From positions 310,001 to 374,000 of the forward strand of contig NZ_JAKIRP010000001.1 in assembly GCF_021646545.1 (NCBI RefSeq): a stretch of DNA of 64,000 bases, in the 5' to 3' direction. Made by a program: the position numbers and the translations under genes. Positions 7,555-29,406 of the stretch are shown in pieces. This stretch comes from Chitinophaga filiformis. GTDB taxonomy: Bacteria; Bacteroidota; Bacteroidia; Chitinophagales; Chitinophagaceae. The notes under the pieces are model-generated. The model was not told where the DNA came from. It did no database searches and saw only the letters and a program-made list of their open reading frames with translations. Every line of letters starts with the position of its first letter. Position 1 is the stretch's first letter.

Positions 7555-7904
7555 GATCAGGGACCAACAATTTACGTCGGGGGACCGGGGTGAAACCCGG
7601 ATTATTGAACCCGGGGTTGAAACCCGGATTATTAAACCCGGCGTTGAAACCCGGATTATCGAACCCGGGGTTAAAACCCGGATTATTGAACCCGGGGTTG
7701 AAACCCGGATTATTGAACCCGGGGTTAAAACCCGGATTATCGAACCCGGGGTTAAAACCCCGCGCTACAAACACTGCGGCTCCTAACGGAGCCTATCGGT
7801 GTTTTGTTTCCCGGATTATTGAACCCCGGATCGCACCTGGCCCCGGTTGAAACCCTGCGCTACTTCGCAGCGTCGTGCAGCCGTAAAATTCCTGGTCCCT
7901 GATT
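7555..7904. repeat. 350-bp intergenic repeat element with inverted ends
   Basis: The segment is bounded by imperfect inverted repeats of about 22 bp (7555-7576 and 7882-7904, both built around ATCAGGGACC and TTTACG). Inside are a 27-bp tandem array and a segment shared with 39861-39912. It carries no transposase and resembles a non-autonomous, MITE-like or REP-type element sitting between two minus-strand genes. Confidence 0.65.
7580..7759. repeat. 27-bp tandem array
   Basis: Five full units (7607-7633, 7634-7660, 7661-7687, 7688-7714, 7715-7741) with degenerate partial units on both sides. Units differ only at a few positions (G/A, T/C). Each contains near-palindromic AACCCGGGGTT and AAACCCGG words. 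Because 27 is a multiple of three and units lack stops, long open frames arise in several frames (for example a 9-residue NPGFNPGFN repeat on the minus strand). I treat these as by-products. Confidence 0.9.
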
Positions 7905-9396: not shown

Positions 9397-9406
9397 AACG
9401 TTGATT

Positions 9407-10753: not shown

Positions 10754-10790
10754 ACCTGCAATGTTTATGTGATGAAATATCGGATAGCGG

Positions 10791-15100: not shown

Positions 15101-15276
15101 TTTCCTTTTACGGGAACATCTGCCGGAAGGTTATTGGCCATAGCATGTTTGCTGGCAGCAGGCAGCGCCGCCCCCCATATCTGCGGGCTTCCCAGTACGG
15201 CGGGAATAAGCAGGACACCCGCATTCCGGGCAAGTCTGCGTATCGCGGGAACATGCCCATAATCGAAGATTGACAT
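12145..15276 (-). CDS. SusC/RagA-family TonB-linked outer membrane transporter
   Basis: 1043 aa. After an N-terminal export signal come a carboxypeptidase-D-like regulatory domain (about 54-130, VKGKVTDINGQQLPGVSV), the SusC signature SEVVVVGYGTQERRNLT (about 132-148), a plug domain with DPLYVVDGVF and YGSRGANGVVIVTTKRG, and a 22-strand-type barrel ending in aromatic/hydrophobic residues (LQFGLNVTL). There is no STN domain, so it is not wired to an anti-sigma factor, unlike the SusC at 33522. It sits between soxC-like (30 bp) and susD-like (22 bp) genes. Confidence 0.95.
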   Translation of the reverse strand: MSIFDYGHVPAIRRLARNAGVLLIPAVLGSPQIWGAALPAASKHAMANNLPADVPVKGKVTDINGQQLPGVSVIVKGSKRGALTRIDGSFELNVPADAVLVFTYLGYKPQEIKVGANIPLHIQLETDDKKLSEVVVVGYGTQERRNLTSAVSTINAAETKNIPVAGFDAQLQGKAAGLQINSNTGVPGDGVFVRVRGTTSINAGNDPLYVVDGVFVNNTSLQTVSTGGRATSPIADINPADIASIEVLKDASATAIYGSRGANGVVIVTTKRGNYGSRTKVNVNVSHGFAKAPKLWDLTTGPEHATLINEYWINTGIDNPALNQTFANRPFRPVAEGGRGLPEEQKTYDRLDELFRTGQLANYDLSLNGGSEKTKFYIGAGYTKQEANIRPVFFERASLKLNVDHKINDRVQIGVSNGITRSYRNQARAGDGPQGGLLQSALHTPTYLPETNPDGTPARWAGFDNLQVLLNNYDVHTISLRYIGNVYAEAEILPDLKFRTSWSVDYNNYDESEYWNDKTQLGAAPTNGLATSSITQNSTWINEQTLSYRKKLGRGHTFGVVVGNTIQQNTLGRTFAQGTGFPNNAYKDISSASTRTAGQTWTQATLASFFSRVDYNYNSKYYLELSVRADGSSRFGSNHRWGYFPAVGAAWRLKEEQFLKDVQFLSDLKLRASYGVTGNQSGINDYAARGLWTGTGGYPDTESGGDKAATAPLQLANPDLRWEKTTQANLGLDAGFLNGRVSLEVNVYSKKTTDVLLQLPVPSNTGYTTYYSNAGEISNKGYEVAIRSENIKRGDFAWNTSFTISGNVNKVEKLPVPITQYNRDWIRMQQGYSMYSFWMYKQLYVDPKTGNAVFQDVNGDGSITVADRQIVGNALPKFFGGISNSFSWKSFDAAVQFNFQYGNKVLNLNRFFGEGGGTRDANRVLFASQLKRWQKEGDITDVPRLTKVGNNYTLEQNSRFIENGSFLRLQALTIGYTLPKSLTSRWHIDGLRVYAAGNNLWLLTKYTGPDPEANVTAAQTVQGIDLGTPPQSRTLQFGLNVTL

Positions 15277-15306: not shown

Positions 15307-16524
15307 CTATTTCCATTTCTCCGGACTATACACCACCTGACCGTCCCGTTTGATAAGCCATGCTGTAACAGGATTGAGATGATATCCTGTACCGATGCCG
15401 CGCGCAGCGATCAATTCGTGCAACGACGGCTGCACATAACCTGTTTCGTCAATAGCGCGGCTCATAATAGCGGTAGTATCGCCGTTCCATTGCCATAAGT
15501 ATCTGAAGTAAGTGTGTGCCTTGTCTAATACAGGCTCCTGCAGACGTGCGGCATTCCAGGTTTTTCCGGCATCTGTGCTTATCTCTACCTGGCGGATCTT
15601 CCCCCGTCCGCTCCAGGCAAGGCCCCTTATTTCCACCCATCCCTTCTGCAGTTGTGCGGGATAAGCCGGATAAGTGATAATAGAGCGGGCGTCCATTGTA
15701 AAACTGAACTGCCGGATTTTACCATCCTTTACAGGTTCTGTGTATTTGGAAGTTTCTTCTCTCGTCATAAAAGGGCCATCTGACAACTCAATACGGCGTA
15801 TCCATTTCACACTGGTGTTGCCTTCCCACCCCGGTAACAGCAATCTTGCAGGGTAACCTTGCTGGGGGCGAATTGCCTCCCCATTTTGTGCATAAACTAT
15901 CATAGCATCTTCCCAGCCTTTACTGACGGGAATGCTGCGTGTCATTACGGCTGCGTCGGAACCCTCGGCAAGAAACCAGGTCACTTTCGGATTAACTCCT
16001 ACCTCCCTGAACAGGGTGGACAACATCACGCCGGTCCATTCACTCTGACTGGTTAGTCCGCAGATGTCCTGTGGTGTAATATTTTCTTTATCCGGTTTCC
16101 TGAAGTTGCCGGAGCACTCTATAAAGCAGATCCTCGATACAGAAGGAAACCGCTTCAGATCAGCGAGTGAAAACACCATTGGCCTGTCTACCATACCATG
16201 TATCATCAACTCATAGCTGTTGGGATCAATAGCAGGCACACCTGCATGATGCCGTTCAAAATGCAGGTCTGAAGGCGTGATCATGCCGTAGAGATCCTGT
16301 AATGGCGTCTGCGAAGAAGTGAGGGAAGGCTTTCGCTCCGGATGTTCAAACGGAGATCTTGTACCCAGTACACCAGGCAGCGGTCCCACCTGTTTGGTAG
16401 GATCAAAAGCCGCTTCGGGAATACCTGTCTGGACCATTTTGCCAAAGGACGACTTTACCAATGCCACAGCAGCTGTGGCAGCACCTCCCAGCAAAAGGTG
16501 ACGACGCGTCATCTTTTGACTCAT
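15307..16524 (-). CDS. soxC: SoxC-like sulfite dehydrogenase, molybdopterin subunit
   Basis: 405 aa, the usual length for SoxC/sulfite-oxidase-family proteins. The N terminus carries a Tat signal (MTRRHLLLGGAATAAVAL), so it is exported folded with its cofactor. The Mo-binding cysteine is visible in FIECSGNF (Cys137), followed by a SoxC-like segment (DICGLTSQSEWTGVML), and a C-terminal Mo-co dimerisation domain (ISTDAGKTWNAARL, YRWQW-like YLWQWNGD). Family role: oxidation of sulfite, or of sulfur bound to a carrier, in the periplasm with electrons passed to a c-type cytochrome. The cytochrome partner is encoded 43 bp upstream. No soxXYZAB genes are in the window, so it may act as a free-standing sulfite dehydrogenase of the SorAB/SoxCD type. 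Confidence 0.88.
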   Translation of the reverse strand: MSQKMTRRHLLLGGAATAAVALVKSSFGKMVQTGIPEAAFDPTKQVGPLPGVLGTRSPFEHPERKPSLTSSQTPLQDLYGMITPSDLHFERHHAGVPAIDPNSYELMIHGMVDRPMVFSLADLKRFPSVSRICFIECSGNFRKPDKENITPQDICGLTSQSEWTGVMLSTLFREVGVNPKVTWFLAEGSDAAVMTRSIPVSKGWEDAMIVYAQNGEAIRPQQGYPARLLLPGWEGNTSVKWIRRIELSDGPFMTREETSKYTEPVKDGKIRQFSFTMDARSIITYPAYPAQLQKGWVEIRGLAWSGRGKIRQVEISTDAGKTWNAARLQEPVLDKAHTYFRYLWQWNGDTTAIMSRAIDETGYVQPSLHELIAARGIGTGYHLNPVTAWLIKRDGQVVYSPEKWK

Positions 16525-16567: not shown

Positions 16568-17143
16568 TTATTCATATGGCCCGTCCCCTCCTTTTCTGCT
16601 GTCTGTCACATAATATTTCCTGGCAGGCATGACAACACCAGGTAAGGTTTTCGCATTTATGACAGCATCTGCGCCGATCAGTTTGTTGGCATGTAACAGC
16701 CATGCTGTGACGCTGTAGACTTCGTTATCTGATAGTGATCCGGGCGCATTAAAAGGCATTGCACGACGCACATAATCGAAGATGGTGGTGGCATATGGCC
16801 AGTAGTTCCCAATGGCTTTCACGCGCTTGGGCGACTGATCAAAAGGCCGCGCGTCGGCAGTATCAGGTGCTACAAGTATGTTGTAGGGTCCTTCTACACC
16901 CGTAGCTCCATGACAGGACGCACATTTGGCAGCATAGATCAACGCACCATCCTGCACAGTACCACTCCCTGCAGGTAATCCTTTACCATCCGGATGGATG
17001 GCGATAGCCTTCGCGGCTATTTCTTTTTCCGTAGCTGGCCGGCCATAACCGAAATGTTCCGGCATAGCTGTATTACGGCGTTCACAGGCAATCACAAGGG
17101 TACCTGCAACGCAGGCCCAAAATGGCATTCGTAGCTTAAACAT
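16568..17143 (-). CDS. soxD: SoxD-like c-type cytochrome lipoprotein
   Basis: 191 aa. It has a short signal with a possible lipobox ending in Cys20 (LVIAC), one haem c site CASCH (Cys74, Cys77, His78) and a likely axial Met129 in RRAMPFNAPGSL. Segments FGYGRPATEKEI and YVRRAMPFNAPGSLSDNEVYSVTAWLL are characteristic of the SoxD/sulfite dehydrogenase cytochrome subunit. It would accept electrons from the SoxC-like enzyme and pass them to the respiratory chain. It is the first gene of the operon. A promoter box and an inverted-repeat operator lie 105-150 bp upstream. Confidence 0.88.
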   Translation of the reverse strand: MFKLRMPFWACVAGTLVIACERRNTAMPEHFGYGRPATEKEIAAKAIAIHPDGKGLPAGSGTVQDGALIYAAKCASCHGATGVEGPYNILVAPDTADARPFDQSPKRVKAIGNYWPYATTIFDYVRRAMPFNAPGSLSDNEVYSVTAWLLHANKLIGADAVINAKTLPGVVMPARKYYVTDSRKGGDGPYE

Positions 17144-17247: not shown

Positions 17248-17255
17248 CAAATATA
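17248..17255 (-). promoter_or_regulatory. Bacteroidota -7 promoter box of the soxD operon
   Basis: On the minus strand the sequence reads TATATTTG, a match to TAnnTTTG. No TTTG is present at the expected -33 distance. The place where it should be (about 17275-17278) is occupied by the inverted repeat at 17273-17293. Confidence 0.6.
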
Positions 17256-17272
17256 GGCAGTTCATTTTTAAA

Positions 17273-17293
17273 AGTCTACTATTTGTGTAGACT
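17273..17293. promoter_or_regulatory. Operator AGTCTA-N9-TAGACT upstream of soxD operon
   Basis: Perfect inverted repeat; arms extend to 10 bp (17270-17279 with 17287-17296, AAAAGTCTAC). The same half-sites at the same 9-bp spacing occur at 29386-29406 before the other redox operon. The centre is about 31.5 bp upstream of the centre of the -7 box, replacing the -33 element, which suits a transcription factor that recruits RNA polymerase. Confidence 0.75.
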
Positions 17294-17349
17294 TTTATAT
17301 GAATGGTAATATTGAACCAATATAAGTGGGTATATGAAGAGAGCAATTA

Positions 17350-17601
17350 TTAATGTTCCATCATATCCAGTATGTCTGTCCAGATGATACGGGCTATCTG
17401 TTCACTTTCGATAGTTCTTACCCGTTCGTCGGGAGTAATCATACGGTCTTCCTGCCAGTCTATCTCTTCAGGCATAAAATCCCTTAGAATATTTCCGCTG
17501 GTGATAACTTCGTATGTTGTTTCCTGAGCAACATCGTCCACAGTGATCGCAAGCTGATACGATCTACCTTCGATATAAACTGTTATTGTACGCCTTTCCA
17601 T
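17350..17601 (-). CDS. Small acidic protein of unknown function
   Basis: About 83 aa from the ATG at 17601 (MERRTITVYIEG); an upstream ATG at 17610 would add three residues. The protein is acidic, has no signal peptide or membrane segment, and predicts as beta strands followed by a C-terminal helix. I do not recognise a family. It lies upstream of the soxD operon on the same strand, but the operator and promoter between them suggest it is separate. Codon use is normal for the window, so it is probably a real gene. Confidence 0.55.
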   Translation of the reverse strand: MERRTITVYIEGRSYQLAITVDDVAQETTYEVITSGNILRDFMPEEIDWQEDRMITPDERVRTIESEQIARIIWTDILDMMEH

Positions 17602-17610
17602 AACAAACAA

Positions 17611-18535
17611 TTAAAACAATCAATTAATAAGGGGTGTCACTATGGATCACTCCATAGCAGAATAAGTTAAAAAGAATCTGTTGATATATTTTACTGGCTG
17701 CTGATTGCCGGGGGTACCCTAAAGTTGTCACTGTCCGTTATATGACCTGCTATTGTTCCCTTTTCACTTTTCTTCATCACCTCTTGACCCCTGCTCGAAT
17801 ACGTCTTCATAATTCTCACATTTAAATGGGTTAGTAATAAGCTGACATACTAATTAGAACAAATTATCTGCCAGTATGTTTTTCTTAGGAAAATGTGGGA
17901 TAATTCTCCCCAACTCCTAAGATCAGCGGTTCGCTCCGGGGTAAAAGTGCGCGTTATGGAGGCATAAATGCGCTTCTCATCAGGCAAGAAATACGTTAAA
18001 ATGATTGAAAATCAGTACATTTACGACAAAAGACTCATCCTTATGGCTGGAATCAGGGGCAAGCCCGGCTATATTGACATATCAGGACTTGTTTCGATCT
18101 GCAAGTTCCAAAAACTGGATTATTTTCCATGTACAGGAAAAAGTAAGTAGACTAGCATCCTATACCGCCTGCAAGATTGTTCCTTTCAACTGACCAGCCG
18201 GTACCTGTCCGCTTTTATATAGCGGATATTATAGCTATCTTTCTTAGCATTCGAACTATTGGGTTAACAACCTACAAGCCGCACATTATGTACAGCCTGT
18301 AGTTTGTTCCATCTCTAAAGATGACTGAGTACTTATTTCGTGGTAGTTAGCACAAAGATCCCGCAGGACTTGTCTGTATTAAAAGATCCGGCAGTTGATC
18401 ATGTGATTGTTGAAATAATCTGCCGGCAACCGAAATTAACAAAGCATCTGTAGAAAAGTTGTAAATGGAAAGCAAACGAAGTGTAAACAATCTTAAACAG
18501 ATTGTGAATGAAAGTTAAATTTCCAATATTTAAAT
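17611..18535. other. 925-bp region without a convincing gene
   Basis: Only short frames of 60-62 codons with no family resemblance are present. A small inverted repeat CAATCT-N5-AGATTG lies at about 18488-18504, 32 bp before the histidine kinase start, and could be a regulatory site for the following two-component genes. Nothing else stands out. Confidence 0.5.
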
Positions 18536-20032
18536 ATGAGTAGAAGATTATGGAGTTCACTGAAACTGCCAGCTGAAAGAATATATTTGTTCTTCAGGAA
18601 TTTTTCGATGAGGCATCCTTTTAAGATCTACATAACAACATCTATTATTTGCTTTCTTGTATTAGCGCTCGTTCAGTTTATTCTGGTCTATAACACCTAT
18701 GATCTGCTTAACAGACGTTTCTATTATGAGAAAAAAAGTAAGATCAATGAAGAATACAGCAAGGCGATCACGAACGATAAATTATACCCCGGCGGACAAG
18801 CAATTATAGACAGCATCCTGGTACCTCAGCTCAGAACATTGGAAGAACTCTATAATACAGACACGACAAAATTCCAGGTTTATTCACAGCAACTACTCAA
18901 TAAAATATTTCACCGGCTTATCGAGGGACAGACAATTGACAGTCTGATGCAACAGATCCGTGGGAAGGAGAATATCACCGACTCACTGCGATATGCATTG
19001 AATATTGCCAAAATCGATATCATGACCGGCAATAGAAAGTATATCAATATCTACGACAGCCGGAAAAAATATGAACTGATAGACGATTCACTGCAATGGT
19101 CTGACGGCATCCGTATTTATGGCGATCTGACGAGCCCTGACGAACGAAGCCAGGTAGCAAGATTGAATGTCAGCAATCCGCAGCCTTATACTTACGCCAT
19201 GGCATTCAGCTTTCACGCAGAGCCTTTCAACCGCCGGCAGATGGTTTTCAGGCAGATGCGCCTGATGCTGACCATGTCACTCTTATCCATGTTTGCCATA
19301 ATTTTATTATTTTTCATCACGATGCGGAACTGGATAAAGCAGAAACGACTCTCTGATGTTAAAACTGATTTTATCAATAACATAACGCACGAATTTCATA
19401 CACCGCTGTCGGCCATTATGGTAGCTAATAAAAACATCCAGAATGAAAAAATTCTGGATAACAAAATGGCTATCCGTTCGCTGTCAGACGTTATAGAGCG
19501 GCAGTCTCACCGGCTGAAGCTGCTGTTCGGGCAAGTACTGGATCTTGCCACTGTCGATAAATTATTTGTGCAGAAAAAGCCACATCACCTGAATATGCTG
19601 GTGAGTGAGATCCTGACCGACTTCAGTATCAAATTTTCGTCTTCCAATGTGCAGATCGAGTATACGCCTTCGGAGGAAGACCTGGTGGTAAACCTTGATA
19701 GTTTTCATTTTACTACCCTGATGCTGAATATACTGGACAATGCAGTGAAATATAATCTTCAGCCGGTTAAAGACCTGGTGGTGCTGATCAGCAATGACAG
19801 GGAGAATATTTACATTACGGTCTCAGATACCGGTATCGGCATGTCGAGGGCAACACTCAAACACATCTTTGAGAAATTTTACAGATACCAGAAAGATCTG
19901 ACGCAGAACACAAAGGGACTGGGACTAGGACTGCACTATGTGAAACAGTGCATAGATGCACACCAATGGAAATTAAAAGTAGACAGTGAAGTAGGAAAAG
20001 GGACTACATTTGTAATTGTGATCCCTGTATAA
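18536..20032 (+). CDS. Membrane sensor histidine kinase
   Basis: 498 aa. Two membrane segments (about 33-53 and 243-263) enclose a 190-residue periplasmic sensor region without a recognised fold. The cytoplasmic part has a HisKA domain with ITHEFHTPLSAI (phospho-acceptor His285), an N box (NILDNAVKYN), DTGIGMS and GLGLGLHYVK of the HATPase. It pairs with the OmpR-type regulator that follows after 60 bp. The stimulus is unknown. The gene is preceded by a 925-bp non-coding stretch. Confidence 0.93.
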   Translation: MSRRLWSSLKLPAERIYLFFRNFSMRHPFKIYITTSIICFLVLALVQFILVYNTYDLLNRRFYYEKKSKINEEYSKAITNDKLYPGGQAIIDSILVPQLRTLEELYNTDTTKFQVYSQQLLNKIFHRLIEGQTIDSLMQQIRGKENITDSLRYALNIAKIDIMTGNRKYINIYDSRKKYELIDDSLQWSDGIRIYGDLTSPDERSQVARLNVSNPQPYTYAMAFSFHAEPFNRRQMVFRQMRLMLTMSLLSMFAIILLFFITMRNWIKQKRLSDVKTDFINNITHEFHTPLSAIMVANKNIQNEKILDNKMAIRSLSDVIERQSHRLKLLFGQVLDLATVDKLFVQKKPHHLNMLVSEILTDFSIKFSSSNVQIEYTPSEEDLVVNLDSFHFTTLMLNILDNAVKYNLQPVKDLVVLISNDRENIYITVSDTGIGMSRATLKHIFEKFYRYQKDLTQNTKGLGLGLHYVKQCIDAHQWKLKVDSEVGKGTTFVIVIPV

Positions 20033-20092
20033 ATTATTTTTTTATAATTAACGTAAACAGGTCGGCTGCTTCAAATTAAAAAATTGAAAGCT

Positions 20093-20797
20093 ATGAGACA
20101 TCGTATTTTATTAGTAGAGGATGAGGCAGATCTGGGTAATGTAGTAAAGCAATACCTGGAGCTGATGGATTTTGATGTGAACTGGCAACAAAACGGCAGT
20201 GATGCATTGGAAGACTTTAAACGGGCTCCTGAACGCTATCAGATATTGCTGATCGATGTAAATCTTCCAGGCATGAATGGGTTCGAACTGGCCGAACACG
20301 TGGTCAGGATCAATAACCAGGTGCCTTTTCTTTTCCTTACCGCCCGCGGGGAAAAAACAGATCGTCTGAACGGTTTGAAAATAGGGGCAGACGACTATGT
20401 CGTAAAACCCTTTGATGTAGACGAACTGGTGCTGCGCATCCGTAACATCATCAAACGTAAACAACCTGTGGTAGCGCCGGAAGTTGTCAAAGCCAATAAT
20501 GTCATCACGATAGGCAATACACAACTTTTCGTTGATTCCCTGAAACTGATTACAGACCAGGGAGATGAAATTGTGCTTACACCAAGGGAATGCGATCTAC
20601 TCGTATTGTTCTTTCACAATGTAAACCGTGTGATCAAACGTGAAGAGATCCTTACTAAAGTCTGGGGCTCTAACGACTACTTCGTTGGCCGCAGCCTGGA
20701 TGTTTTCATTTCCCGGTTCAGGAAGTATTTCCAGCAGAATTCCGGTATCAGCATCAAGAACGTATACGGAATCGGATTTGTGTTCAATGTGAAATGA
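20093..20797 (+). CDS. OmpR-family response regulator
   Basis: 234 aa from the ATG at 20093; a TTG three codons upstream is less likely. The receiver domain has the acidic pair Glu9-Asp10 region, phospho-acceptor Asp55 (LLIDVNLPG), Thr83 (LTARG) and Lys105 (VVKPFD). The C-terminal winged helix (about 140-232) shows LTPRECDLLVLFFHN, an EEILTKVWGSN segment and RSLDVFISRFRKYF. It acts as the DNA-binding partner of the preceding kinase. No clear terminator follows. Confidence 0.95.
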   Translation: MRHRILLVEDEADLGNVVKQYLELMDFDVNWQQNGSDALEDFKRAPERYQILLIDVNLPGMNGFELAEHVVRINNQVPFLFLTARGEKTDRLNGLKIGADDYVVKPFDVDELVLRIRNIIKRKQPVVAPEVVKANNVITIGNTQLFVDSLKLITDQGDEIVLTPRECDLLVLFFHNVNRVIKREEILTKVWGSNDYFVGRSLDVFISRFRKYFQQNSGISIKNVYGIGFVFNVK

Positions 20798-21233
20798 TCA
20801 TATCAGCCATTCACGCTACACTTTTTCATTTGTCTGTACTTCATTCCGCGATGCAATCTGGTGAGCTGCATATAGGCAAATCAACACATGCAATATCACA
20901 ACAACACCTGGTTCAGTAATTCCGTTTAGTGGAACAGAAGCCGCTATGGCGCCCGCCTCAGTAACGAAATATTTGTTTATCAGAACGCGCCGGTGGCGCG
21001 GATTTTTCCAAAACATGCCGGGCAAATACAAACAGCAATGACGAAAATATTTACCGGCTTTTTTTGATTACATCACAAAGCTAAGTAGAAAAGTCATGCG
21101 GAAAACACGCATTTTTGACTTGTCCCGATATACCTCAACTAATTGACAAACAATCACTTCTGAGCCAATCAACCCCAAACACCAAAATGAAAGCATTCTC
21201 GCTTTTCTTTGGTAACACGATACTCAAACTTCG

Positions 21234-21339
21234 ATCTGAATTGCATATGACCAGGATATACTTCCGATTATCCTCCGATTTGATCGGAAGATTATCGGAA
21301 GTATATCCTGGTCATATGCAAGTTACATGCAAGTCAGAT
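21234..21339. repeat. Long palindrome 1
   Basis: Perfect 28-bp arms (21241-21268 with 21294-21321) continue inward as an imperfect match around CTCCGAT/ATCGGAAG with almost no loop. Outward they pick up again as ATCTGA (21234-21239) and TCAGAT (21334-21339), after an extra 11-12 bp in the right arm that duplicates CTTGCAT. Confidence 0.9.
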
Positions 21340-21391
21340 GCTTTGTTCTTAGTCCTGAAAGTTTACCTTTTTCCGCATTTTAGTCCTCTTT

Positions 21392-21479
21392 GATACCGCT
21401 TTGATACCGCTAATGCTACGTTGATCCTACGTTCATGAACGTAGGATCAACGTAGCACTAGCGGTATTAAAGCGGTATC
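21392..21479. repeat. Long palindrome 2
   Basis: 44-bp arms (21392-21435 and 21436-21479) with two mismatches and no loop; the centre is GTTCATGAAC. Each arm contains short direct repeats: GATACCGCT twice and CTACGTT twice. Confidence 0.92.
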
Positions 21480-21524
21480 TAGTCGAACCCAAACCGGGGC
21501 TCGGCTAGCCAAAAACCAGGGTTA

Positions 21525-21637
21525 ACATTCGGTTGAGATATAGTCAAGATAGGCTCATCCTCCCTTAATCTTCCGTTCCGGAACGGAAGATTAAGGGAGG
21601 ATGAGCCTATCTTGACCGAATGTCTACTATATCTCAA
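21525..21637. repeat. Long palindrome 3 with alternative outer pairings
   Basis: Perfect 37-bp arms (21543-21579 and 21580-21616), no loop, centre GTTCCGGAAC. Outside them, ACATTCGG (21525-21532) and TTGAGATATA (21533-21542) on the left have exact complements on the right (21616-21623 and 21628-21637) in non-nested order. Only one of the two outer stems can extend the main stem at a time. Confidence 0.9.
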
Positions 21638-21735
21638 GTACATAAAAGTAACCCCATTTACTCCGGTACCACTATACCGAATCCCTTCCGAATATATGCC
21701 TGAGTACAGAAAAACTTTACAGCTTCATTCAGCCA

Positions 21736-21768
21736 TTCAGGATCAGCTTTACAGCTGATTGTCCTGAA
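21736..21768 (-). terminator. Putative terminator of the TlpA-cupin operon
   Basis: TTCAGGA/TCAGCT pairs with AGCTGA/TCCTGAA around a four-base loop, with a three-base bulge. It lies just past the stop of the cupin gene. The following T-rich stretch on the minus strand is about 25 bases away, so termination is only moderately supported. Confidence 0.5.
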
Positions 21769-21775
21769 CCACCAA

Positions 21776-22636
21776 CTATTTCGTTTTTACAGCCCTCTCA
21801 GCCCGCCTGTATGCCGTCTTCATCTTGTAGTCAAACCACTTCTTCCCAAGTATCTTCCGCATCGCATCGTCAAAACGCCTTGTGATAAAAATATTCCGCA
21901 CGCCAACAGCACGTTTCAGCATAGACACCGGCAATGCACGATAAGCTACGGAATACCCCGCTGTTTCGTACTGGATGTAATGCCAGAAACCCGATGGTAT
22001 GAACAGCGTTTCACCGAAATGCAGCGTGCACTCCCAGCCATTCAAATGCCGGAGCGCAGGAAAAGCTTCATAATCCGGATTACGCAGATCTGCAATACCA
22101 TGGAAATTCCAGGGTAAGCGGTATAGAAGGTCTGATTGCTCATTAGGGAATAACCATACTTTTTTCACTCCCTGGAACTGCGAAAGGAACACATGCGACA
22201 TATCAATGTCGTAATGATACCTCACAGAAGATCCCTCTCCTCCGAAGAAGAGAAAGGGCAACCAGGTCAGCAGGTTATCTGCCAGTTTCCGCACCCTCAG
22301 CTGTCCTTTGATATCCGGCCGCTCGCGCAGCAGGTTAAACAGGAACAGACGCCTGACGGTGGGTCTTGACTCGATCAGGTCCAGGTAGTCGCCAAACTTC
22401 ATTTTTTCGGCCGGCTGACTGGTAGCCTTGTCAAGATGTGCGTTTTCTTCACTATGCACACCGACCATCACATCTCCGGCTTCCTGCCTGAAATAGTCGT
22501 AGTTCCATTTCTTCAATGCCTCACTATCCGGGTGAATAAAGTCCTTTATGAGCACAGGTATCCCCGGTTTCAGAAAGTCACTCCTAAACTGTTCCCGGGT
22601 GTATCCGCTAATGGTTGTTACAGGTTTCAGTTGCAT
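21776..22636 (-). CDS. JmjC/cupin_8-like Fe(II)/2-oxoglutarate dioxygenase
   Basis: 286 aa. It fits the cupin-like (cupin_8/JmjC) hydroxylase family. A facial triad is visible as His141 and Asp143 in RYHYDIDMSHVF, and His219 in IPSGFWHYIQYE. An N-terminal segment (PVLIKDFI) is typical of the FIH-like group. It would hydroxylate a protein or small molecule in the cytoplasm; the substrate is unknown. It is the last gene of an operon, 14 bp after the DUF4397 lipoprotein. Its presence beside a TonB receptor and a di-heme peroxidase is unusual. No signal peptide is seen. Confidence 0.82.
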   Translation of the reverse strand: MQLKPVTTISGYTREQFRSDFLKPGIPVLIKDFIHPDSEALKKWNYDYFRQEAGDVMVGVHSEENAHLDKATSQPAEKMKFGDYLDLIESRPTVRRLFLFNLLRERPDIKGQLRVRKLADNLLTWLPFLFFGGEGSSVRYHYDIDMSHVFLSQFQGVKKVWLFPNEQSDLLYRLPWNFHGIADLRNPDYEAFPALRHLNGWECTLHFGETLFIPSGFWHYIQYETAGYSVAYRALPVSMLKRAVGVRNIFITRRFDDAMRKILGKKWFDYKMKTAYRRAERAVKTK

Positions 22637-22650
22637 GATATATTCTGTTG

Positions 22651-23493
22651 TTAGTTCTCAAGATGTGTAATGATAGCGCCTCCTGTCGCTGACTTACCCG
22701 GTACCTTGTACAGGAAGGCGGTATAGCTTTTCCCTGCTTCCAGTGTCAGGTTGGAAAATGTTTCCCCTTCAATAACCAGTGGGCTATTGTCGGAAGTGAT
22801 ACTCACTGCGAGCCCGGAAGTACCCGCAGGTACTTCGATAAAAGGCCCCAGCGACCATACATTCAGGCCGTCGCCTGTCAGTACGGAACCGCCGGCACGA
22901 CCATAATCCACGTTTTCGAACAGCAGGCTTCCCCGGCCCTGCTGCTGTAATGTGATACTCACTACCGGAGTACCCGGTGCGAGATGAACGAAACGTAGTT
23001 TGGCCTTACCGGCGGCCGGAGGCTGCAAGTTGTCATAGAACAGTATGAGGGTGTCTTTTGTTATATCAGTTTTGCTGCTGGCGGCAAAGACCGTATGGTG
23101 ATAACCTGCCACCGGCCCGTTCGGACCACCGCTGGCCGTAAAAGCGGCCTGATTGCCGAACTGGCGTGACAGCTTGTAACTTGTGCCTGTACCTTCAGTA
23201 AAATTGATCTGCACATTGCCGAATACCGTCGGCAGATAAGGCGAGGCCTGACCAACGCTGACAGCGGTTGTTGTTACCTGCGCCGTAAATGCCCAGAACT
23301 GTAAGGGAATATTGACCGGGCGTGCATTCACAAAGCTGATCTGTGCATTGAGCGGAGGTCTTTCTCCGGCATTCACATCCAGGTAATCGGCCTTGTTGCA
23401 GGCCGCCAGTGTTCCCGCGATAACCAGTATACCTGTAAAACGCGCTACCAGGACACCTGGTTTAATATGGTTCATGATGTTCATGTGCTGCAT
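22651..23493 (-). CDS. DUF4397-type surface lipoprotein
   Basis: About 281 aa from the ATG at 23493. The longer frame to 23541 overlaps the TonB receptor gene and adds a non-signal-like tail; ATGs at 23484 and 23475 are also possible. The signal peptide ends in a lipobox (GTLAAC). The body is made of two immunoglobulin-like beta repeats with AQISFVNARP and AKLRFVHLAPGTP, the hallmark of DUF4397. It probably sits on the outer membrane next to the TonB receptor encoded just upstream and may act as its surface partner in place of a SusD. Confidence 0.82.
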   Translation of the reverse strand: MQHMNIMNHIKPGVLVARFTGILVIAGTLAACNKADYLDVNAGERPPLNAQISFVNARPVNIPLQFWAFTAQVTTTAVSVGQASPYLPTVFGNVQINFTEGTGTSYKLSRQFGNQAAFTASGGPNGPVAGYHHTVFAASSKTDITKDTLILFYDNLQPPAAGKAKLRFVHLAPGTPVVSITLQQQGRGSLLFENVDYGRAGGSVLTGDGLNVWSLGPFIEVPAGTSGLAVSITSDNSPLVIEGETFSNLTLEAGKSYTAFLYKVPGKSATGGAIITHLEN

Positions 23494-23515
23494 TTTAATG
23501 TGCCGACAGGCACGT

Positions 23516-26068
23516 TTAAAACCTGGCCAGTAGCCTTGCAAAAGGCTGGATACCGGCGCTTCCGTTCTGTATACCCACCACTGTTGGATTACGCAGTCCC
23601 GCTATAGCGGCATCTGTATAATCGCCCAGCACATCAAACACATTATTCACACCTATAGTGGCCAGCAACTGTGGGGTGATGTGATATCCTGCCGACAGGT
23701 CTGTTACCCAGACCGGTTTGAGCTCCTGGAAGAAATAATCCGGTCTTGGAAAAGTAGCATTCAACGCTGTAGCTGTGGTAACAGTGCCGAAATAAACCGT
23801 GCGTAACAGGAAGTTCCACTTGCGTAGGTTATAGATACCCTGGAGCGTGATCTTCTGTTGCGGGATATTGGTCGTGACACGTGCCTTCTCCGCTTCGCTG
23901 AAGATGACATAGCGATATGCTTCCAGCCCCTTAGGCGTATTCACACCTGTCACCTCATTGCGCGAAAAATTAGCGCCTGCCAGGAATGACAATGTTCCAT
24001 TATCTAACAGCAGTTTATAGCTTCCTGTAAACTCGATGCCCTTTGTACGTGTACTGAAAGCGTTGTAGAAGAATTTAGCCTGTGTAGTGCCTGTTTGTAG
24101 CAGCAAGGTCCTCACATCTTCCGGCAGATTGGTATCCAGGGCGGAGAAATTGCCTGTGTTGCCTACACGGTTCTCTATGTCAATATGATAAGCATCGAGG
24201 GTTAATTCTACTCTGGGTGCCGGCTGAGAAGTAATACCGGCGCTGAAACCCTTCGATCTTTCAGGCGTCAGGGAAGGGATGCCCAATGCCCTTGCAGCAG
24301 CACTTTTGTTGGAAGCCGTTACCAGGTCTACTGCACGCCCCTGCTGGAAAGTTGTAGACGTTTCTGTGTAATAGAACTGTGCAAGATCCGGTGCACGGAA
24401 ACCGGTATTATAGGCTCCCCGGAAGGCCAGCCATTTAGCCAGGCTATAACGGCTGGCAACTTTCCAGGTAGTAACATTGCCAAAGTCAGAGAAATGCTCT
24501 GCCCTGATGGCTGCCGACAACAACCAACTGTTGGTAATGTTGGCCTCAATATCAAGATAACCTGCTGCAACAGCACGGTTAACATTCACTTCATTGGCAG
24601 GTCTGAATCCTGCATGTATCTGTGATCCCGGCGACAATCCATTCAACGCTATCAGTCCGGCAGATGACAGATAAGGCACACCGGCTGCAGTAGTGTCGAT
24701 ATTGTACACCGTACGCAGATCTGCTTTTGCATAAGATGCTTCTTCTCCGGCGATGATCTGGTACGTCTCTACCCGGTACTGCCCACCAAAGGCCACATTA
24801 ATACCTTTCAGCGCCTTGTCGAAGTACCTGGAAATATCCAGGCTGGCTGTATTCTGCGATGCATTATAACGGCCGGCATCGAATGTAGTAGGGCTCTTCA
24901 GCCCGTAGCTTGCATTCAATGAATTGTCTATGACATTCCCGAAATCATTCCTTCCATATACATTGGAAAGATCGGCTGTCCACTGTCCTAATTTTCCTTT
25001 GATGCCTATGGCGATGGATTTGTCGGTAATAGTATTGTCCATCTCCGGCAGGAAACCATCCGGATACAGGAATGAGTTATTTCTTTCTGTCCACCCCGGC
25101 AAGCGGTATACCGCCGTAAATTCCGAGTTACGATGACTGATACCACCGAATGTATAAAGCTCCACACCATCCTTTAGCGGGATACCTGCATTGAATGCCA
25201 GCAGTGCATCTTTGGCCCTGTTGGACCCACCTCCGCGCTGATCAAAGTAATGACGGTCTATCCCACGGCTTGCCAGTATAGCATCGTCTATCTCTTTTGT
25301 ATAGATGGCATCATATCCACGGGTATTGGCGCCACCACCGTAGATGGGCCCATTGTATAATCCCGCATCCTTTCTGCCTGCCGGCAATGCAATGCCCTGT
25401 GTGGCAAATTCGGCAGTGAGATGCAGGTAACCGCCCTGCTGTCCTATTTTAACGCCATAGCTGACGTTAGACCGGGTAGTTAATCCGTCTCCGCGACGGC
25501 GCACGCTGGCCGTCGAGCTGACGTTAATGTCATCGGTTGATTTCTTCAGTACGATATTGATCACGCCAGCAATGGCATCAGAGCCGTATTGTGCGGCAGC
25601 GCCATCCCTGAGTATTTCGATACGCTCTATTGCTTCCGCCGGGATCGCGTTGAGGTCATACCCTGTAGCCCCATTCCCCAGACCACCCCAGTTGATGTTG
25701 GCACTTTTATGCCTTCTTTTCCCGTTCACAAGTACCAGCAGCTGGTCCACACCCAATCCCTTTAATTGCGCAAGATTGAGTGCGGAACCTGCATCACCGG
25801 CGTTGCTGCCATTCACAGAGTGAAAGGAAGGAGAGATGTACTGCAGCAACTGCGTAATACTTGTTTGTGGAGCGTTTTCCTGTAAAGACCGAAGGTTAAT
25901 GACATCTACCGGTACCGGTGCATTCAGCCGTGTACGGGTCACACTGCGGGAACCAACTATCTGCACCTCTCCCAGATGACGCCGGGTGAGTGTATCCTTC
26001 TCCTGCGACTGTGCCGGCGTGACATTGCCTGCAAACAGCAGTAAAAAAATGATAGTAATGATTCTCAT
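23516..26068 (-). CDS. TonB-dependent outer membrane receptor
   Basis: 850 aa. The signal peptide is cut near PAQSQ. A plug domain of about 50-180 contains LNLAQLKGLGVDQLLVLVNG and IERIEILRDGAAAQYGSDAIAGVINIVLKK, followed by a classic 22-strand barrel ending with FARLLARF. It lacks the carboxypeptidase-like extension of SusC proteins, so it is closer to siderophore, cobalamin or metal receptors. It lies between the di-heme peroxidase and DUF4397 genes (43 and 22 bp gaps) and appears to be the uptake component of the operon. The substrate is unknown. Confidence 0.92.
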   Translation of the reverse strand: MRIITIIFLLLFAGNVTPAQSQEKDTLTRRHLGEVQIVGSRSVTRTRLNAPVPVDVINLRSLQENAPQTSITQLLQYISPSFHSVNGSNAGDAGSALNLAQLKGLGVDQLLVLVNGKRRHKSANINWGGLGNGATGYDLNAIPAEAIERIEILRDGAAAQYGSDAIAGVINIVLKKSTDDINVSSTASVRRRGDGLTTRSNVSYGVKIGQQGGYLHLTAEFATQGIALPAGRKDAGLYNGPIYGGGANTRGYDAIYTKEIDDAILASRGIDRHYFDQRGGGSNRAKDALLAFNAGIPLKDGVELYTFGGISHRNSEFTAVYRLPGWTERNNSFLYPDGFLPEMDNTITDKSIAIGIKGKLGQWTADLSNVYGRNDFGNVIDNSLNASYGLKSPTTFDAGRYNASQNTASLDISRYFDKALKGINVAFGGQYRVETYQIIAGEEASYAKADLRTVYNIDTTAAGVPYLSSAGLIALNGLSPGSQIHAGFRPANEVNVNRAVAAGYLDIEANITNSWLLSAAIRAEHFSDFGNVTTWKVASRYSLAKWLAFRGAYNTGFRAPDLAQFYYTETSTTFQQGRAVDLVTASNKSAAARALGIPSLTPERSKGFSAGITSQPAPRVELTLDAYHIDIENRVGNTGNFSALDTNLPEDVRTLLLQTGTTQAKFFYNAFSTRTKGIEFTGSYKLLLDNGTLSFLAGANFSRNEVTGVNTPKGLEAYRYVIFSEAEKARVTTNIPQQKITLQGIYNLRKWNFLLRTVYFGTVTTATALNATFPRPDYFFQELKPVWVTDLSAGYHITPQLLATIGVNNVFDVLGDYTDAAIAGLRNPTVVGIQNGSAGIQPFARLLARF

Positions 26069-26111
26069 GTTTATAAGTTATAAGATAAGGTTGTCCGCCG
26101 CTGGCGGTTGA

Positions 26112-27047
26112 TTATTGGTTGATGAAACGGTCGTCTGTCAGTGTTTTTAAAAATGCTTCCAGTTCGTTTATTTCTGTGTCTGTTAAATTCAATGGTGTAT
26201 TTAATGAAAGGTCCCTTTTTATACCGTTATTGACGATGACATCTGGTTGATTATAGTATTGTATCACTTCGCGCAGCGTCTTAAACATACCGTTATGCAT
26301 ATAAGGCGCTGTAAGGGCTACATTCCTGAGACCGGGCACTTTGAAGAATCCAAGTTGGGCACTATCCCTTGTTACTTCAAAGCGCCCCGCGTCTGTCAGT
26401 GTAGTGCCATTGTACAATCCGATGTTCTTGAAGCGGTCGGCAGTAAAATCTTCTCCGGAGTGGCAATTACTACAATTGGCCTTACCGATGAATAATAATC
26501 TGCCTCTGGCGGCCTCCGGCGATATGGCATCATCGTCTCCGTTAATATATCTGTCATATGGGCTGTTGGCTGTTTCCAAAGTGCGCTCAAATGCAGCAAG
26601 GGCATTCAGCAGATTTTTCTCAGTAGGCACACTATTGAACAATTTTCTGAACGCACGCACATAAGTACTGTCTGCATTCAGCCGCTTTATGGCTTCTTCA
26701 ATAGGCAGGCCCATTTCGGCGGCTGAGATGATGGGCTGTTTTGCCTGCTCTTCCAGTGAAGCGCTACGCCCATCCCAGAAGAAACTTGGTCTGCCACGTT
26801 GATTGGTAATGGACGGCGTGTTCCGCTTTGTGAGCTGTCCATGAATACCTTTGCTGAATGCTGCGGTATCTGCAAATGCAAACTGCGGCTTATGGCAGGA
26901 GGCGCAACTGATTGTTCTGTCGCCGGATAATATGGGATCAAAGAACAACTGTTCTCCGAGCTTTGCACGTGTTAACGGTTCCTCTGAATGAAAGGCCAGC
27001 AACATGACTACGGCTACTAATATGCCTGCGATGTACCACTGTTTCAT
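26112..27047 (-). CDS. Di-heme cytochrome c peroxidase (MauG/CcpA family)
   Basis: 311 aa with an N-terminal signal or anchor. Two haem c sites are visible: CASCH (Cys48, Cys51, His52) and CSNCH (Cys192, Cys195, His196). Family segments LFFDPILSGDRTISC, RNTPSITN, FFWDGR, and PGLRNVALTAPYMHNG (with the likely axial Met) are present. These enzymes reduce hydrogen peroxide or, in the MauG branch, oxidise protein residues in the periplasm. Its start codon overlaps the YceI stop codon as TAATG, so the two are translationally coupled. Confidence 0.92.
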   Translation of the reverse strand: MKQWYIAGILVAVVMLLAFHSEEPLTRAKLGEQLFFDPILSGDRTISCASCHKPQFAFADTAAFSKGIHGQLTKRNTPSITNQRGRPSFFWDGRSASLEEQAKQPIISAAEMGLPIEEAIKRLNADSTYVRAFRKLFNSVPTEKNLLNALAAFERTLETANSPYDRYINGDDDAISPEAARGRLLFIGKANCSNCHSGEDFTADRFKNIGLYNGTTLTDAGRFEVTRDSAQLGFFKVPGLRNVALTAPYMHNGMFKTLREVIQYYNQPDVIVNNGIKRDLSLNTPLNLTDTEINELEAFLKTLTDDRFINQ

Positions 27048-27706
27048 TACTGCGCATTAGCCAACAATGTTATGTCGAGCTCAAAGTCATCGTAAATAGC
27101 TTTGTCGCCAAGGTTTTCAAAATAATTCTTCGAACGGTACCTGATATCATACTTCGTCCTGTCTATTTTCACCTTTGCGGTAGCCGTCAGCTTATCCTTA
27201 TCCACCTTTACAGTAGCCGGGAAACTGATATCGTTGGTGATGCCTTTAATGGTCAGTTTACCTGTCAGATCATATTGACCATCGCCATGAGGCTTAATAC
27301 CCGTGATGAGAAAATCTGCTGCAGGATATTTTTCCACCGCAAAGAAATCATCACTTTTCAGATGACCGGTAAGTTTGGCATTGCCGTCGGCATCTTTGAT
27401 ATCGGTTACTGTGATGCTACGCGTATCCAGTTTGAAACTGCCGTTCTTTAAAGCGTTGTTCTCTACATTCAGTGTGCCACTGCTGATGTCAATTGTACCG
27501 GTATGCTCACCGGTCACTTTGCGCGCAGTCCACAATAGTTTACTGTTCTTATTATCTACCTGGAAGGCAGTTACTTTATTCAGTGCAACAGTATTATTAA
27601 CAGTTGAAGGTATCGGTTGCGTATGCTGTACCTGTACGGTAAAAGCGGTGATCACGGCTATCACGCCGATAGAAGCAAAGGAGGCTGCGTGTTGGAAGAG
27701 TTTCAT
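27047..27706 (-). CDS. YceI-family periplasmic protein
   Basis: 219 aa with a signal peptide. The body is the YceI lipocalin-like barrel: FQVDNKNSKLLWTARKVTGEHTG at the start, HLKSDDFFAVEKYPAADF in the middle and an acidic C-terminal strand (YDDFELDITLLA). YceI proteins bind isoprenoid-like or other amphipathic ligands and often accompany cytochromes. It is coupled to the peroxidase gene by a 1-base overlap and follows the TlpA-like gene by 119 bp. Confidence 0.92.
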   Translation of the reverse strand: MKLFQHAASFASIGVIAVITAFTVQVQHTQPIPSTVNNTVALNKVTAFQVDNKNSKLLWTARKVTGEHTGTIDISSGTLNVENNALKNGSFKLDTRSITVTDIKDADGNAKLTGHLKSDDFFAVEKYPAADFLITGIKPHGDGQYDLTGKLTIKGITNDISFPATVKVDKDKLTATAKVKIDRTKYDIRYRSKNYFENLGDKAIYDDFELDITLLANAQ

Positions 27707-27825
27707 AATAGCGTGTTTTTAAAGGACCTGTGAAGGCTGTTTGCACAGCCCCACAGGCGTGACAACAGAAAACAACATGTAGAACCGGAAACATATGTGA
27801 TCATCGTGCGATGATAATAGTGTTA

Positions 27826-29112
27826 CTAGTGGATGCTGGCAACATCCTGCGGAGCTGGTTCTTCAATCAGTACATCCAGGTCTTTGTTCCATTTCTCTAC
27901 ATATGATTTGAAGTATTGACCAGTTATTTCTCCTGTATAACCGGTATGGATCTGCCTTACTTCTCCTTTGCGATCAATAATGATCGTAGTCGGGAAGGCC
28001 ATCATGCGGTTGAGGGCCGGAAGTTTTTCCGAAGCCACTTTCTTATCAGCAATGCCACCAAAAAGAATATCATATTCAATTGCGTATTTATCTTTTAATT
28101 TACCCAGTGTATACCTGGCATATTCGAGATCATCTTTCTGCTCAAAACCGATGGCGATAGCTTCTACGCCACGTGCTTTGTTCTTTTTGAACCAGGGAGC
28201 AAGGAATGCTGTCTGGTCTGTACAATTGGGACACCAGGTACCAATGATCTCTACTATGACCACCTTGCCTTTGTACTTGGCATCGCTGAGTGAGACCTGC
28301 TTTCCGTTCAGATCAGGCAAAGTAAAATCCAGTTTGTTATATCCTTCTTTGAGATAGGTAAGCTTGTAGGGGTCTGGCAGCTCTGCCTGCGCATTTTTAT
28401 TGCCGTCAAATTTTACGTTGTTGTAAATGCCCAGACTCAGCTCTCCACTGAAGGACTGATCATCATTGATCTTTCCTTTTATATAAATAGGACTTGGGCC
28501 GGTGAACCCTGACAGCTCAAACTGGTCGCCCTGTACGGTGCCTTCCAGTTCCCGGCTGTCGCCCACGACAGACATGATCACACCGGTCAGTTTATTCCCT
28601 TCCTGTTTCAATAATCCGATACGGTTAGGAGTAGGATCTTTACTATAGATCTGCAGTTCCCATTTACCTGACAGGTCATATGCAGGTTTAACGTCTTTCC
28701 CCGGTTCCACAAAGCGGTATTTCTTACCTGCTTCTGCTACGAAAGGCAGTGCATTGCCACGGAAATTAGGTACCAGACTTCTATATTCACCGGTAATGCG
28801 GCCATCCGATTCGACCCTTGCAAACAGCGCTGCATCGTAGGTATTCATCTTGATAAAAAGCGAATCGTCTGTAATACGTTTCACTTTAAATTCGTCGCGG
28901 CGGTGACCATTAATGAGCGTGAAAACGGCATGCTCAGGGTCTTTACCTTTCAGTTCAAAATTGAAAGGAACTGTGGCTTCGTTGACAGTAAAAACACCAC
29001 GCCACACGCCTTCTTTTAAGAAGAGGGGCTTTTTCTCAGTCGCCAGTACAGTACTGCTGAAAAGTACAGCGGCCAGCAGGCCTTTTACTCCAATGCGGGT
29101 AATTGTCTTCAT
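27826..29112 (-). CDS. TlpA-like thioredoxin-fold lipidless periplasmic protein
   Basis: 428 aa from the ATG at 29112, which begins a clear signal peptide (MKTITRIGVKGLLAAVLF); the frame extends to 29157 without function. The first 260 residues are two beta-rich domains of unknown type. The last 165 form an AhpC/TSA-TlpA thioredoxin domain, starting FTLPDLNGKQVSLSD with active site WCPNC (293-297) and cis-proline in FPTTIII. It probably reduces or exchanges disulfides in the periplasm. It is the first gene of the operon and sits 240 bp downstream of a promoter that carries the shared operator. Confidence 0.88.
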   Translation of the reverse strand: MKTITRIGVKGLLAAVLFSSTVLATEKKPLFLKEGVWRGVFTVNEATVPFNFELKGKDPEHAVFTLINGHRRDEFKVKRITDDSLFIKMNTYDAALFARVESDGRITGEYRSLVPNFRGNALPFVAEAGKKYRFVEPGKDVKPAYDLSGKWELQIYSKDPTPNRIGLLKQEGNKLTGVIMSVVGDSRELEGTVQGDQFELSGFTGPSPIYIKGKINDDQSFSGELSLGIYNNVKFDGNKNAQAELPDPYKLTYLKEGYNKLDFTLPDLNGKQVSLSDAKYKGKVVIVEIIGTWCPNCTDQTAFLAPWFKKNKARGVEAIAIGFEQKDDLEYARYTLGKLKDKYAIEYDILFGGIADKKVASEKLPALNRMMAFPTTIIIDRKGEVRQIHTGYTGEITGQYFKSYVEKWNKDLDVLIEEPAPQDVASIH

Positions 29113-29349
29113 GAGAGTAGATTTGGTTTGAGTGGTTGATAGTTCAGGGCATGGCAATCTCCTTCCGCTTGGCGGTCAGCTGTAGAGTATATCTGACAAA
29201 TGGAATGGGAGTGCCTTGCTAAAGGCAGGTTTTAGCTACAACAACAGGGCATACAGCCGGAAGAACGAAGGAAGTTGTACATGTTGAACAGTGTTAGTTA
29301 ATTTCAATAAATCAACTAATTAATGGTGGCTTAATTAGGGTGGTGATAA

Positions 29350-29381
29350 CAAAGATAGAATGGTGAATCTTATTTTCCAAA
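29350..29381 (-). promoter_or_regulatory. Bacteroidota promoter of the TlpA-YceI operon
   Basis: Read on the minus strand, TTTG (29378-29381) is followed after 20 bp by TATCTTTG (29350-29357). This matches the -33 TTTG / -7 TAnnTTTG pattern. It implies a 5' leader of about 230 bases. Confidence 0.6.
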
Positions 29382-29385
29382 AAAT

Positions 29386-29406
29386 AGTCTATAATTTTTA
29401 TAGACT
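29386..29406. promoter_or_regulatory. Operator AGTCTA-N9-TAGACT upstream of TlpA operon
   Basis: Perfect inverted repeat; arms extend to TAGTCTATA/TATAGACTA (29385-29393, 29399-29407). It lies four bases upstream of the -33 box. Half-sites and spacing are identical to 17273-17293, and its centre is 42.5 bp from the -7 centre (31.5 bp at the other site). Confidence 0.75.

Follow-up and report, generated by a model that had tools for sequence, protein, structure and literature searches.

A conserved palindrome before two redox operons of Chitinophaga filiformis as a probable operator of a four-cysteine Rrf2 regulator of sulfur genes

A stretch of 64,000 nucleotides from Chitinophaga filiformis (assembly GCF_021646545.1, contig NZ_JAKIRP010000001.1, positions 310,001 to 374,000; hereafter the window) carries two copies of the palindrome AGTCTA-N9-TAGACT, one before an operon encoding a SoxC-type sulfite dehydrogenase and the other before an operon headed by a gene for a TlpA-like thiol-disulfide protein. 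On the comparative evidence collected here, the palindrome probably serves as the operator for a so far uncharacterised regulator of sulfur genes, a member of the Rrf2 family with four conserved cysteines, and leader peptides would probably provide a second layer of control at some targets. The palindrome keeps its place and its distance to the promoter before orthologous operons, it co-occurs with one type of Rrf2 gene among related genomes, and small reading frames encoding cysteine runs are enriched in the upstream regions that contain it.

Two operators in the window

Both copies are exact, and each precedes a promoter of the Bacteroidota type:

17273-17293, minus strand: operator 1, AGTCTACACAAATAGTAGACT, before the cytochrome c-soxC-susCD-DoxX-like operon
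17248-17255, minus strand: -7 box TATATTTG, 17 nt downstream of operator 1, centre distance 31.5
29386-29406, minus strand: operator 2, AGTCTATAAAAATTATAGACT, before the tlpA operon
29378-29381, minus strand: -33 element TTTG, 4 nt downstream of operator 2, kept in 26 of 26 tlpA orthologues
29350-29357, minus strand: -7 box TATCTTTG, centre distance 42.5 to operator 2, TAnnTTTG in 26 of 26 orthologues

A preliminary description of the window, made from its letters alone, had noticed only these two copies, each with a minus-strand TAnnTTTG box behind it. Both points are borne out: when up to 3 mismatches were allowed, the other 12 matches among the matches listed all carried 3. The 11-bp difference between the two centre distances, to which the description had drawn attention, is real as well, and each distance is conserved among distinct orthologous promoters (31.5 in 7/7 for sox, 42.5 in 26/26 for tlpA). 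The -33 TTTG just downstream of operator 2 is present as described, and the sox promoter is, by eye, without a clear -33 element. A TAnnTTTG -7 box at constant distance, as expected of Bacteroidota sigma-A promoters, was found in 26/26 tlpA, 7/7 sox and 26/26 cysH upstream regions.

An inverted repeat might also act at the level of RNA, as an intrinsic terminator or a hairpin. The minus-strand hairpins reach -14.7 and -11.6 kcal/mol, values matched by 0 and 1 of 200 shuffles, and operator 1 lies 57 bp past the end of an 86-amino-acid reading frame (17350-17610). The stems are AT-rich, however, and any DNA dyad folds as RNA; before two further genes considered below, tauE and metY, the repeat and the gene's own core promoter overlap. 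A terminator scan, run on operator 1 only, made no call there, and with the folding comparison it led us to reject the terminator reading; an RNA element of any kind is very improbable.

Conservation of the palindrome in the genus

The evidence beyond chance is the conservation of the palindrome and not its abundance. The 9.07-Mb genome to which the window belongs holds 3 exact copies against 2 for a reversed-pattern control, so the count in this one genome is not significant. At up to two mismatches it holds 120 matches against 471 in the control. The relaxed pattern AGTCYA-N9-TRGRNT likewise stays below its control there (forward 9 vs 11, reverse 9 vs 17), and therefore only relaxed matches supported by their context were used. 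The pattern TCTAC-N7-GTAGA by itself shows no enrichment (11 vs 27). Across the genus, the exact motif occurs in 59 of 60 congeneric genomes, with 116 sites against 15 for the control; 75 of these sites were compared with gene positions, and 34 lie at tlpA, tauE or cysH or at most 10 kb from soxC. The single-genome count is what one would expect if the window simply held two chance copies of a frequent motif, but the genus-wide excess and the orthologous placement refute this, and we give the idea next to no credence.

The third exact copy in the genome lies 39 bp before a gene of the TauE/SafE family (sulfite exporter family). At most two mismatches separate the motif from a site upstream of all 26 tlpA orthologues (17 exact) and all 30 tauE orthologues (18 exact), and 26 of 30 cysH orthologues have a site within three mismatches. 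Among close relatives, soxC has a site in 7/7 cases, of which 6 are exact and 1 carries one mismatch. The tauE set comprises 30 of 39 orthologues with at least 64% identity and the cysH set 30 of 59 genomes; the TlpA paralogues L151-L154 (34-42% identity) and the SoxC fragment L124 were left out before counting. Shuffles in this test and in that of the named loci described below preserve base composition only.

The half-sites stand out from their surroundings. Their mean conservation exceeds that of the adjoining 40 bp upstream at tlpA (0.97 vs 0.41), cysH (0.90 vs 0.44) and tauE (0.96 vs 0.60), and at sox (0.99 vs 0.72), where the sequences are few and close. The dyad is moreover kept by paired changes in the two arms, as in ATCCTA...TAGGAT and AGTCCA...TGGACT.

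In 11 distant relatives no site was found within the 950 bp upstream of soxC that were searched. Four of these genomes (G002, G004, G041, G042) have an exact site 8.4-8.5 kb upstream of soxC, where it heads a permuted operon of the order SusC-SusD-DoxX-like-DoxX-like-(cytochrome)-SoxC, with the cytochrome matched in 3/4. Since the site heads these permuted operons, the operator appears to be tied to the operon head and not to any one gene. This check covered 6 of the 11 genomes; in the other two, G024 and G052, no exact site was found within 10 kb among the matches listed.

As to the assembly itself, three motif matches on its contigs C22 and C23 form mirrored pairs at a constant coordinate sum, and a fourth nearly does; this pattern suggests that one of the two contigs nearly duplicates, in reverse complement, a part of the other. 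For this genome a contamination of 6.22% is listed.

A candidate regulator

What protein could recognize the palindrome? In four relatives (L020, L023, L042, L043) an Rrf2-family gene adjoins a site and cysH, and an orthologue of their Rrf2 protein (86-100% identity to the query) is present in 59 of the 60 genus genomes. In the genome of the window the gene lies on another contig (G000:C23:613650-614075, 142 amino acids), in agreement with the earlier statement that the regulator is not in the window; downstream of it come a one-mismatch site and then cysH-cysD-cysN. A BlaI/MecI-type regulator in the window was also considered and rejected, the candidate at 42-44 kb being acyl carrier protein, ketosynthase and ribonuclease III.

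The candidate belongs to the Rrf2 superfamily (TIGR00738 115.4 bits vs 73.3; Pfam Rrf2 125.5 vs 30). Its four cysteines follow the spacing C-x8-C-x2-C-x5-C, with C91, C100 and C109 conserved in 66 of 67 sequences and C103 in 67 of 67.

Presence of the motif follows presence of the gene. Among 244 genomes of the family, the motif occurs in 81 of 164 Rrf2-positive and 6 of 80 Rrf2-negative genomes (Fisher p 1.4e-11; phylogenetically, these genomes are not independent). The positive genomes hold 167 sites in total (control 34) and the negative ones 6 (control 12), and all 44 genomes with at least 2 copies are Rrf2-positive (44 vs 0). In two genomes of one genus, g34 (L294, L295), the motif is found 42 bp upstream of the Rrf2 gene.

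The link reaches beyond the family. We examined 80 named Bacteroidota loci, the nearest from Chitinophaga ginsengisoli, in 37 of which cysH, cysD or cysN is present. A half-relaxed motif was uninformative there (2 sites vs 1 in the control), so that a profile was needed; it was derived from the genus sites, and the Chitinophaga-type loci are therefore not independent of it. Before cysH beside an Rrf2 gene, 22 of 36 regions exceed the 99th percentile of shuffles, namely 10/11 at Chitinophaga-type loci and 12/25 at others, the latter including Algoriphagus, Cyclobacterium, Lunatimonas and Pleomorphovibrio. Upstream of TauE-type genes that adjoin the Rrf2 gene, the profile passes in 2/5 loci, both of them from Chryseobacterium.

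The palindromes might instead be bound by another transcription factor, an Rrf2 paralogue or a member of a different family, the rrf2-cysHDN neighbourhood being incidental. Weaker Rrf2 matches do occur in many genomes, and a site between a peroxiredoxin gene and rrf2 need not serve rrf2. Against this speak the co-occurrence of motif and Rrf2 gene, the presence of the site beside rrf2-cysH in several families and its position within rrf2-peroxiredoxin-cysH-cysDN operons, and we consider another factor distinctly unlikely. The proposal of the preliminary description that one regulator serves both window sites is supported, with the Rrf2 protein as its probable identity.

Promoter geometry and the sign of regulation

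We measured geometry from the operator centre to the centre of a strict TAnnTTTG -7 box. The strict offsets are 42.5 at tlpA (23/23), 31.5 at sox (7/7), 19.5 at cysH (34/37) and 0.5 at metY (6/15), and other gene clusters show 20.5, 27.5, 30.5, -0.5 and -12.5, among others. By eye, the permuted sox operons have an offset of 29.5 with the box TATTATTG, and tauE has a TACCTT-type -7 directly before the operator, at offset -12.5. At metY the operator encloses the -7 box, and in 12/12 loci a TTTG is found 18-19 nt upstream of this box; the count is not a test of the reading because the loci were picked for having a site. Where clusters were not aligned, boxes near 0 are ambiguous, since the AT-rich spacer itself can match TAnnTTTG. 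As operators range from upstream of the -33 to just past the -7, a repressor fits better than an activator, and we infer that the Rrf2 protein acts mainly as a repressor, released when sulfur or iron-sulfur (Fe-S) supply falls.

The preliminary description had read the geometry as that of a dimeric activator bound to one DNA face, upstream of the -33 or in its place. The same Rrf2 protein could indeed activate both window promoters: the offsets of 31.5 and 42.5 are about one helical turn apart and each is conserved, and the sox and cysH promoters are, by eye, without a clear TTTG -33. The -7 box of Flavobacterium psychrophilum spans -12 to -5 according to the excerpt of PMC9723704, and with this numbering the operator centres would fall near -40 and -51. 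The wider regulon does not share this geometry, with several offsets, some of them measured to ambiguous boxes, incompatible with one phase, the by-eye 29.5 of the permuted sox operons, and a -7 within the operator at metY or directly before it at tauE. The tlpA promoter should also need no activator, because its -33 and -7 boxes are conserved 26/26. Activation of this kind at the two window promoters we consider unlikely. Strict helical phasing was dropped as well: the first five promoters appeared in phase and the wider set did not, though, with some boxes ambiguous, this leaves a phase rule without support and does not strictly refute it.

A leader peptide with a cysteine run

The tlpA operon is preceded by a further element:

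29232-29282, minus strand: predicted leader peptide MYNFLRSSGCMPCCCS, before tlpA, with its cysteine run adjoining the stop codon

This is a short open reading frame (ORF) with at least three consecutive cysteine codons between promoter and gene, the form by which polycysteine leaders are recognized. A run of three cysteines (CCC) is encoded in 5 of 26 tlpA orthologues, and two more have SSGCMP-x-CC; in other genera, as many as five cysteines in a row are encoded by leaders before TonB genes and before PhyH. Of 166 upstream regions with a site (taken in relaxed form at up to 450 bp, orthologues included), 15 hold a small ORF with CCC in frame, compared with 4 of 329 regions without a site (p 4.7e-5). 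Counted by gene cluster, the figures are 6/37 and 4/173 (p 0.0025), and one of the four control matches (L005) is the PhyH gene of the window's own genome, which itself has a one-mismatch site. The window tlpA leader folds slightly more stably than its shuffles (z of -2.2, 4/200 as good), and no clear terminator is visible in it by eye. Taken together, these leaders point to a probable second, cysteine-sensing layer of control for some targets, the tlpA operon among them.

Two further loci of this genome may be mentioned here. The PhyH-type dioxygenase gene (L087:4217-4425, C4:77216) has a one-mismatch site upstream, its family having exact sites in other genera, and its leader also holds an ORF ending in PYCCC and a stop. 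At L395:1501-1899 (C11:967898 onward) an operator, AGTCTACTATATTTGTAGGGT, encloses a -7 box and is followed by a leader ORF, MRITMQKDVQQSLRHFNTQNMLTCNSHYNQGCCC, ending in GCCC and a stop, and then by a 63-amino-acid ORF without a Pfam match above cutoff. A S-adenosylmethionine (SAM) riboswitch or other Rfam RNA was sought at this leader, and none was found at gathering scores.

Breadth of the regulon and proposed mechanism

The preliminary description had expected a small regulon, which the conserved sites at cysH, metY and tauE do not favour. Sites in relatives precede cysD in rrf2-peroxiredoxin-cysH-cysDN operons, TonB receptor genes beside genes for sirohaem synthesis and TauE-type proteins, PhyH-type dioxygenases, and ATP-binding cassette (ABC) importers, including a cluster with an NlpA/MetQ-type lipoprotein. 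The metY product is a cysteine/methionine-metabolism enzyme dependent on pyridoxal phosphate by Pfam, its exact name being our own assignment. The other part of that expectation is supported, in that the regulon is linked to sulfur and takes in TonB genes and genes of periplasmic redox chemistry.

We propose that a dimer of the Rrf2 protein would bind the dyad, mainly repressing, and would respond to cysteine or sulfur or to the status of an Fe-S cluster. It would control the window's sulfite dehydrogenase and TlpA-YceI-MauG operons along with metY, TauE, sulfate assimilation and uptake through TonB-dependent systems. At tlpA and some other targets, a leader peptide with a terminal cysteine run may tie expression to the supply of Cys-tRNA by attenuation. 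The full form of this proposal, a two-tier cysteine switch of Bacteroidota in which a four-cysteine, possibly Fe-S, Rrf2 repressor is joined by a Cys-tRNA-sensing leader on a subset of transcripts and both window operons are sulfur-scavenging machinery, seems to us evenly balanced between right and wrong.

Several observations weigh against the proposal, in addition to the non-independence of the family genomes and the selection of the metY loci. As regards the sites, 4 of 30 cysH regions fail the 3-mismatch limit; L201 and L202 among these carry a symmetric variant, and in L200 and L204 no site was found by eye, the variant included. The cysH site of the window's own genome is itself not exact, having one mismatch, and 83 of the 164 Rrf2-positive family genomes are without an exact site. 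As regards the regulator, there are other Rrf2 paralogues (about 31% identity), and the g34 site sits between rrf2 and a divergent peroxiredoxin gene, which it may serve. In the named loci only 3/76 regions upstream of rrf2 and 3/30 upstream of cysD pass the 99th percentile; autoregulation is therefore not general. As regards the promoters, the strict TAnnTTTG is present in only 1/32 tauE regions and, in the in-operator register, in only 3/12 at metY, and an activator role is possible at tlpA (-42.5) and at sox (-31.5, no good -33). As regards the leaders, 21 of 26 tlpA leaders are without the CCC form, and none was found in the sox (7), tauE (30) and cysH (26) leaders scanned.

Relation to known systems

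The proposed regulator resembles CymR of Firmicutes in its superfamily, in its association with sulfur and cysteine acquisition genes and in its probable action as a repressor. CymR is not known to carry an Fe-S cluster; it acts together with CysK, the complex with which sets its activity. The candidate differs from it in scoring 76.2 against the equivalog cutoff of 195 (NF047409), in its four conserved cysteines, in its phylum and in targets that include TonB/SusCD, sulfite dehydrogenase and TlpA-MauG genes. With IscR, RirA and NsrR it shares membership in the Rrf2 family and a conserved cysteine cluster after the helix-turn-helix domain. Those regulators bind dyad operators, and IscR has a three-cysteine pattern, from which the C-x8-C-x2-C-x5-C spacing of the candidate differs. 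The candidate falls below the cutoffs of IscR (TIGR02010, 77.1 vs 207.55), RirA (62 vs 193) and NsrR (47 vs 182), and, unlike all three, it is linked to cysHDN. Among the literature matches listed, available as excerpts, are Rrf2 regulators of the Fe-S type as well as CymR, and none concerns an Rrf2 regulon for sulfur in Bacteroidota.

Polycysteine leaders have been described in Actinobacteria (PMC1262725, PMC9094748, PMC13236596, in excerpt), before the cys operons of Mycobacterium and P. acnes and before cbs of B. longum (PMC1262725, in excerpt). The leaders reported here are likewise short ORFs with a cysteine run near the stop, upstream of sulfur genes; they differ in phylum, in lying downstream of an Rrf2-type operator and in the genes that follow, which encode TonB receptors, a PhyH dioxygenase and TlpA. 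Among the matches listed for leader peptides and Bacteroidetes, likewise in excerpt, there were no Bacteroidota cysteine leaders. If the proposal is correct, polycysteine leader peptides extend beyond Actinobacteria, sulfur sensing in Bacteroidota gains a handle, and uncharacterised TonB/SusCD, DoxX-like and MauG-type operons can be assigned to sulfur acquisition.

Genes of the two operons

The genes downstream of operator 1 are:

16568-17143, minus strand: c-type cytochrome of 191 amino acids in the SoxD position (Pfam Cytochrom_C / Cytochrome_CBB3)
15307-16524, minus strand: SoxC-type sulfite dehydrogenase of 405 amino acids (TIGR04555)
12145-15276, minus strand: SusC-type TonB-dependent receptor (Plug and CarbopepD_reg_2)
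10791-12122, minus strand: SusD-type lipoprotein (SusD-like_3, SusD_RagB)
9407-10819, minus strand: polytopic membrane protein that resembles DoxX by eye only and has no Pfam match above cutoff
7912-9438, minus strand: polytopic membrane protein that resembles DoxX by eye only, likewise without a Pfam match
6103-7539, minus strand: FAD/NAD(P)-dependent oxidoreductase

Like the SoxCD sulfite dehydrogenase, the catalytic subunit passes the SoxC model (484 bits vs cutoff 420), and its nearest solved structure is a sulfite dehydrogenase (2xts, E 4.9e-89). Unlike SoxCD, the neighbouring cytochrome is only a generic cytochrome c by profile, with no NCBIfam match, and the operon adds SusCD and DoxX-like proteins. 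The two DoxX-like proteins are paralogues with 42% identity, and in each of the four permuted operons read they accompany SusCD and SoxC. The oxidoreductase possibly belongs to the same transcription unit, because it follows soxC in one of the four relatives read (L403).

The genes downstream of operator 2 are:

27826-29157, minus strand: TlpA-like thiol-disulfide protein (AhpC-TSA / Redoxin); its true start is likely the ATG at 29112
27047-27706, minus strand: YceI-like protein
26112-27047, minus strand: MauG/MbnH-like di-haem protein (CCP_MauG)
23516-26068, minus strand: TonB-dependent receptor
22651-23541, minus strand: DUF4397 protein, a probable operon member by position
21776-22636, minus strand: Cupin_8 / JmjC-type protein, a probable operon member by position

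Against TIGR04039 the MauG/MbnH-like protein scores 225 bits, under the cutoff of 363.

Between the second DoxX-like gene and the oxidoreductase gene, positions 7585-7760 hold a 27-bp tandem repeat of 6.6 copies with 92% matches, which in one frame reads as NPGFNPGF repeats.

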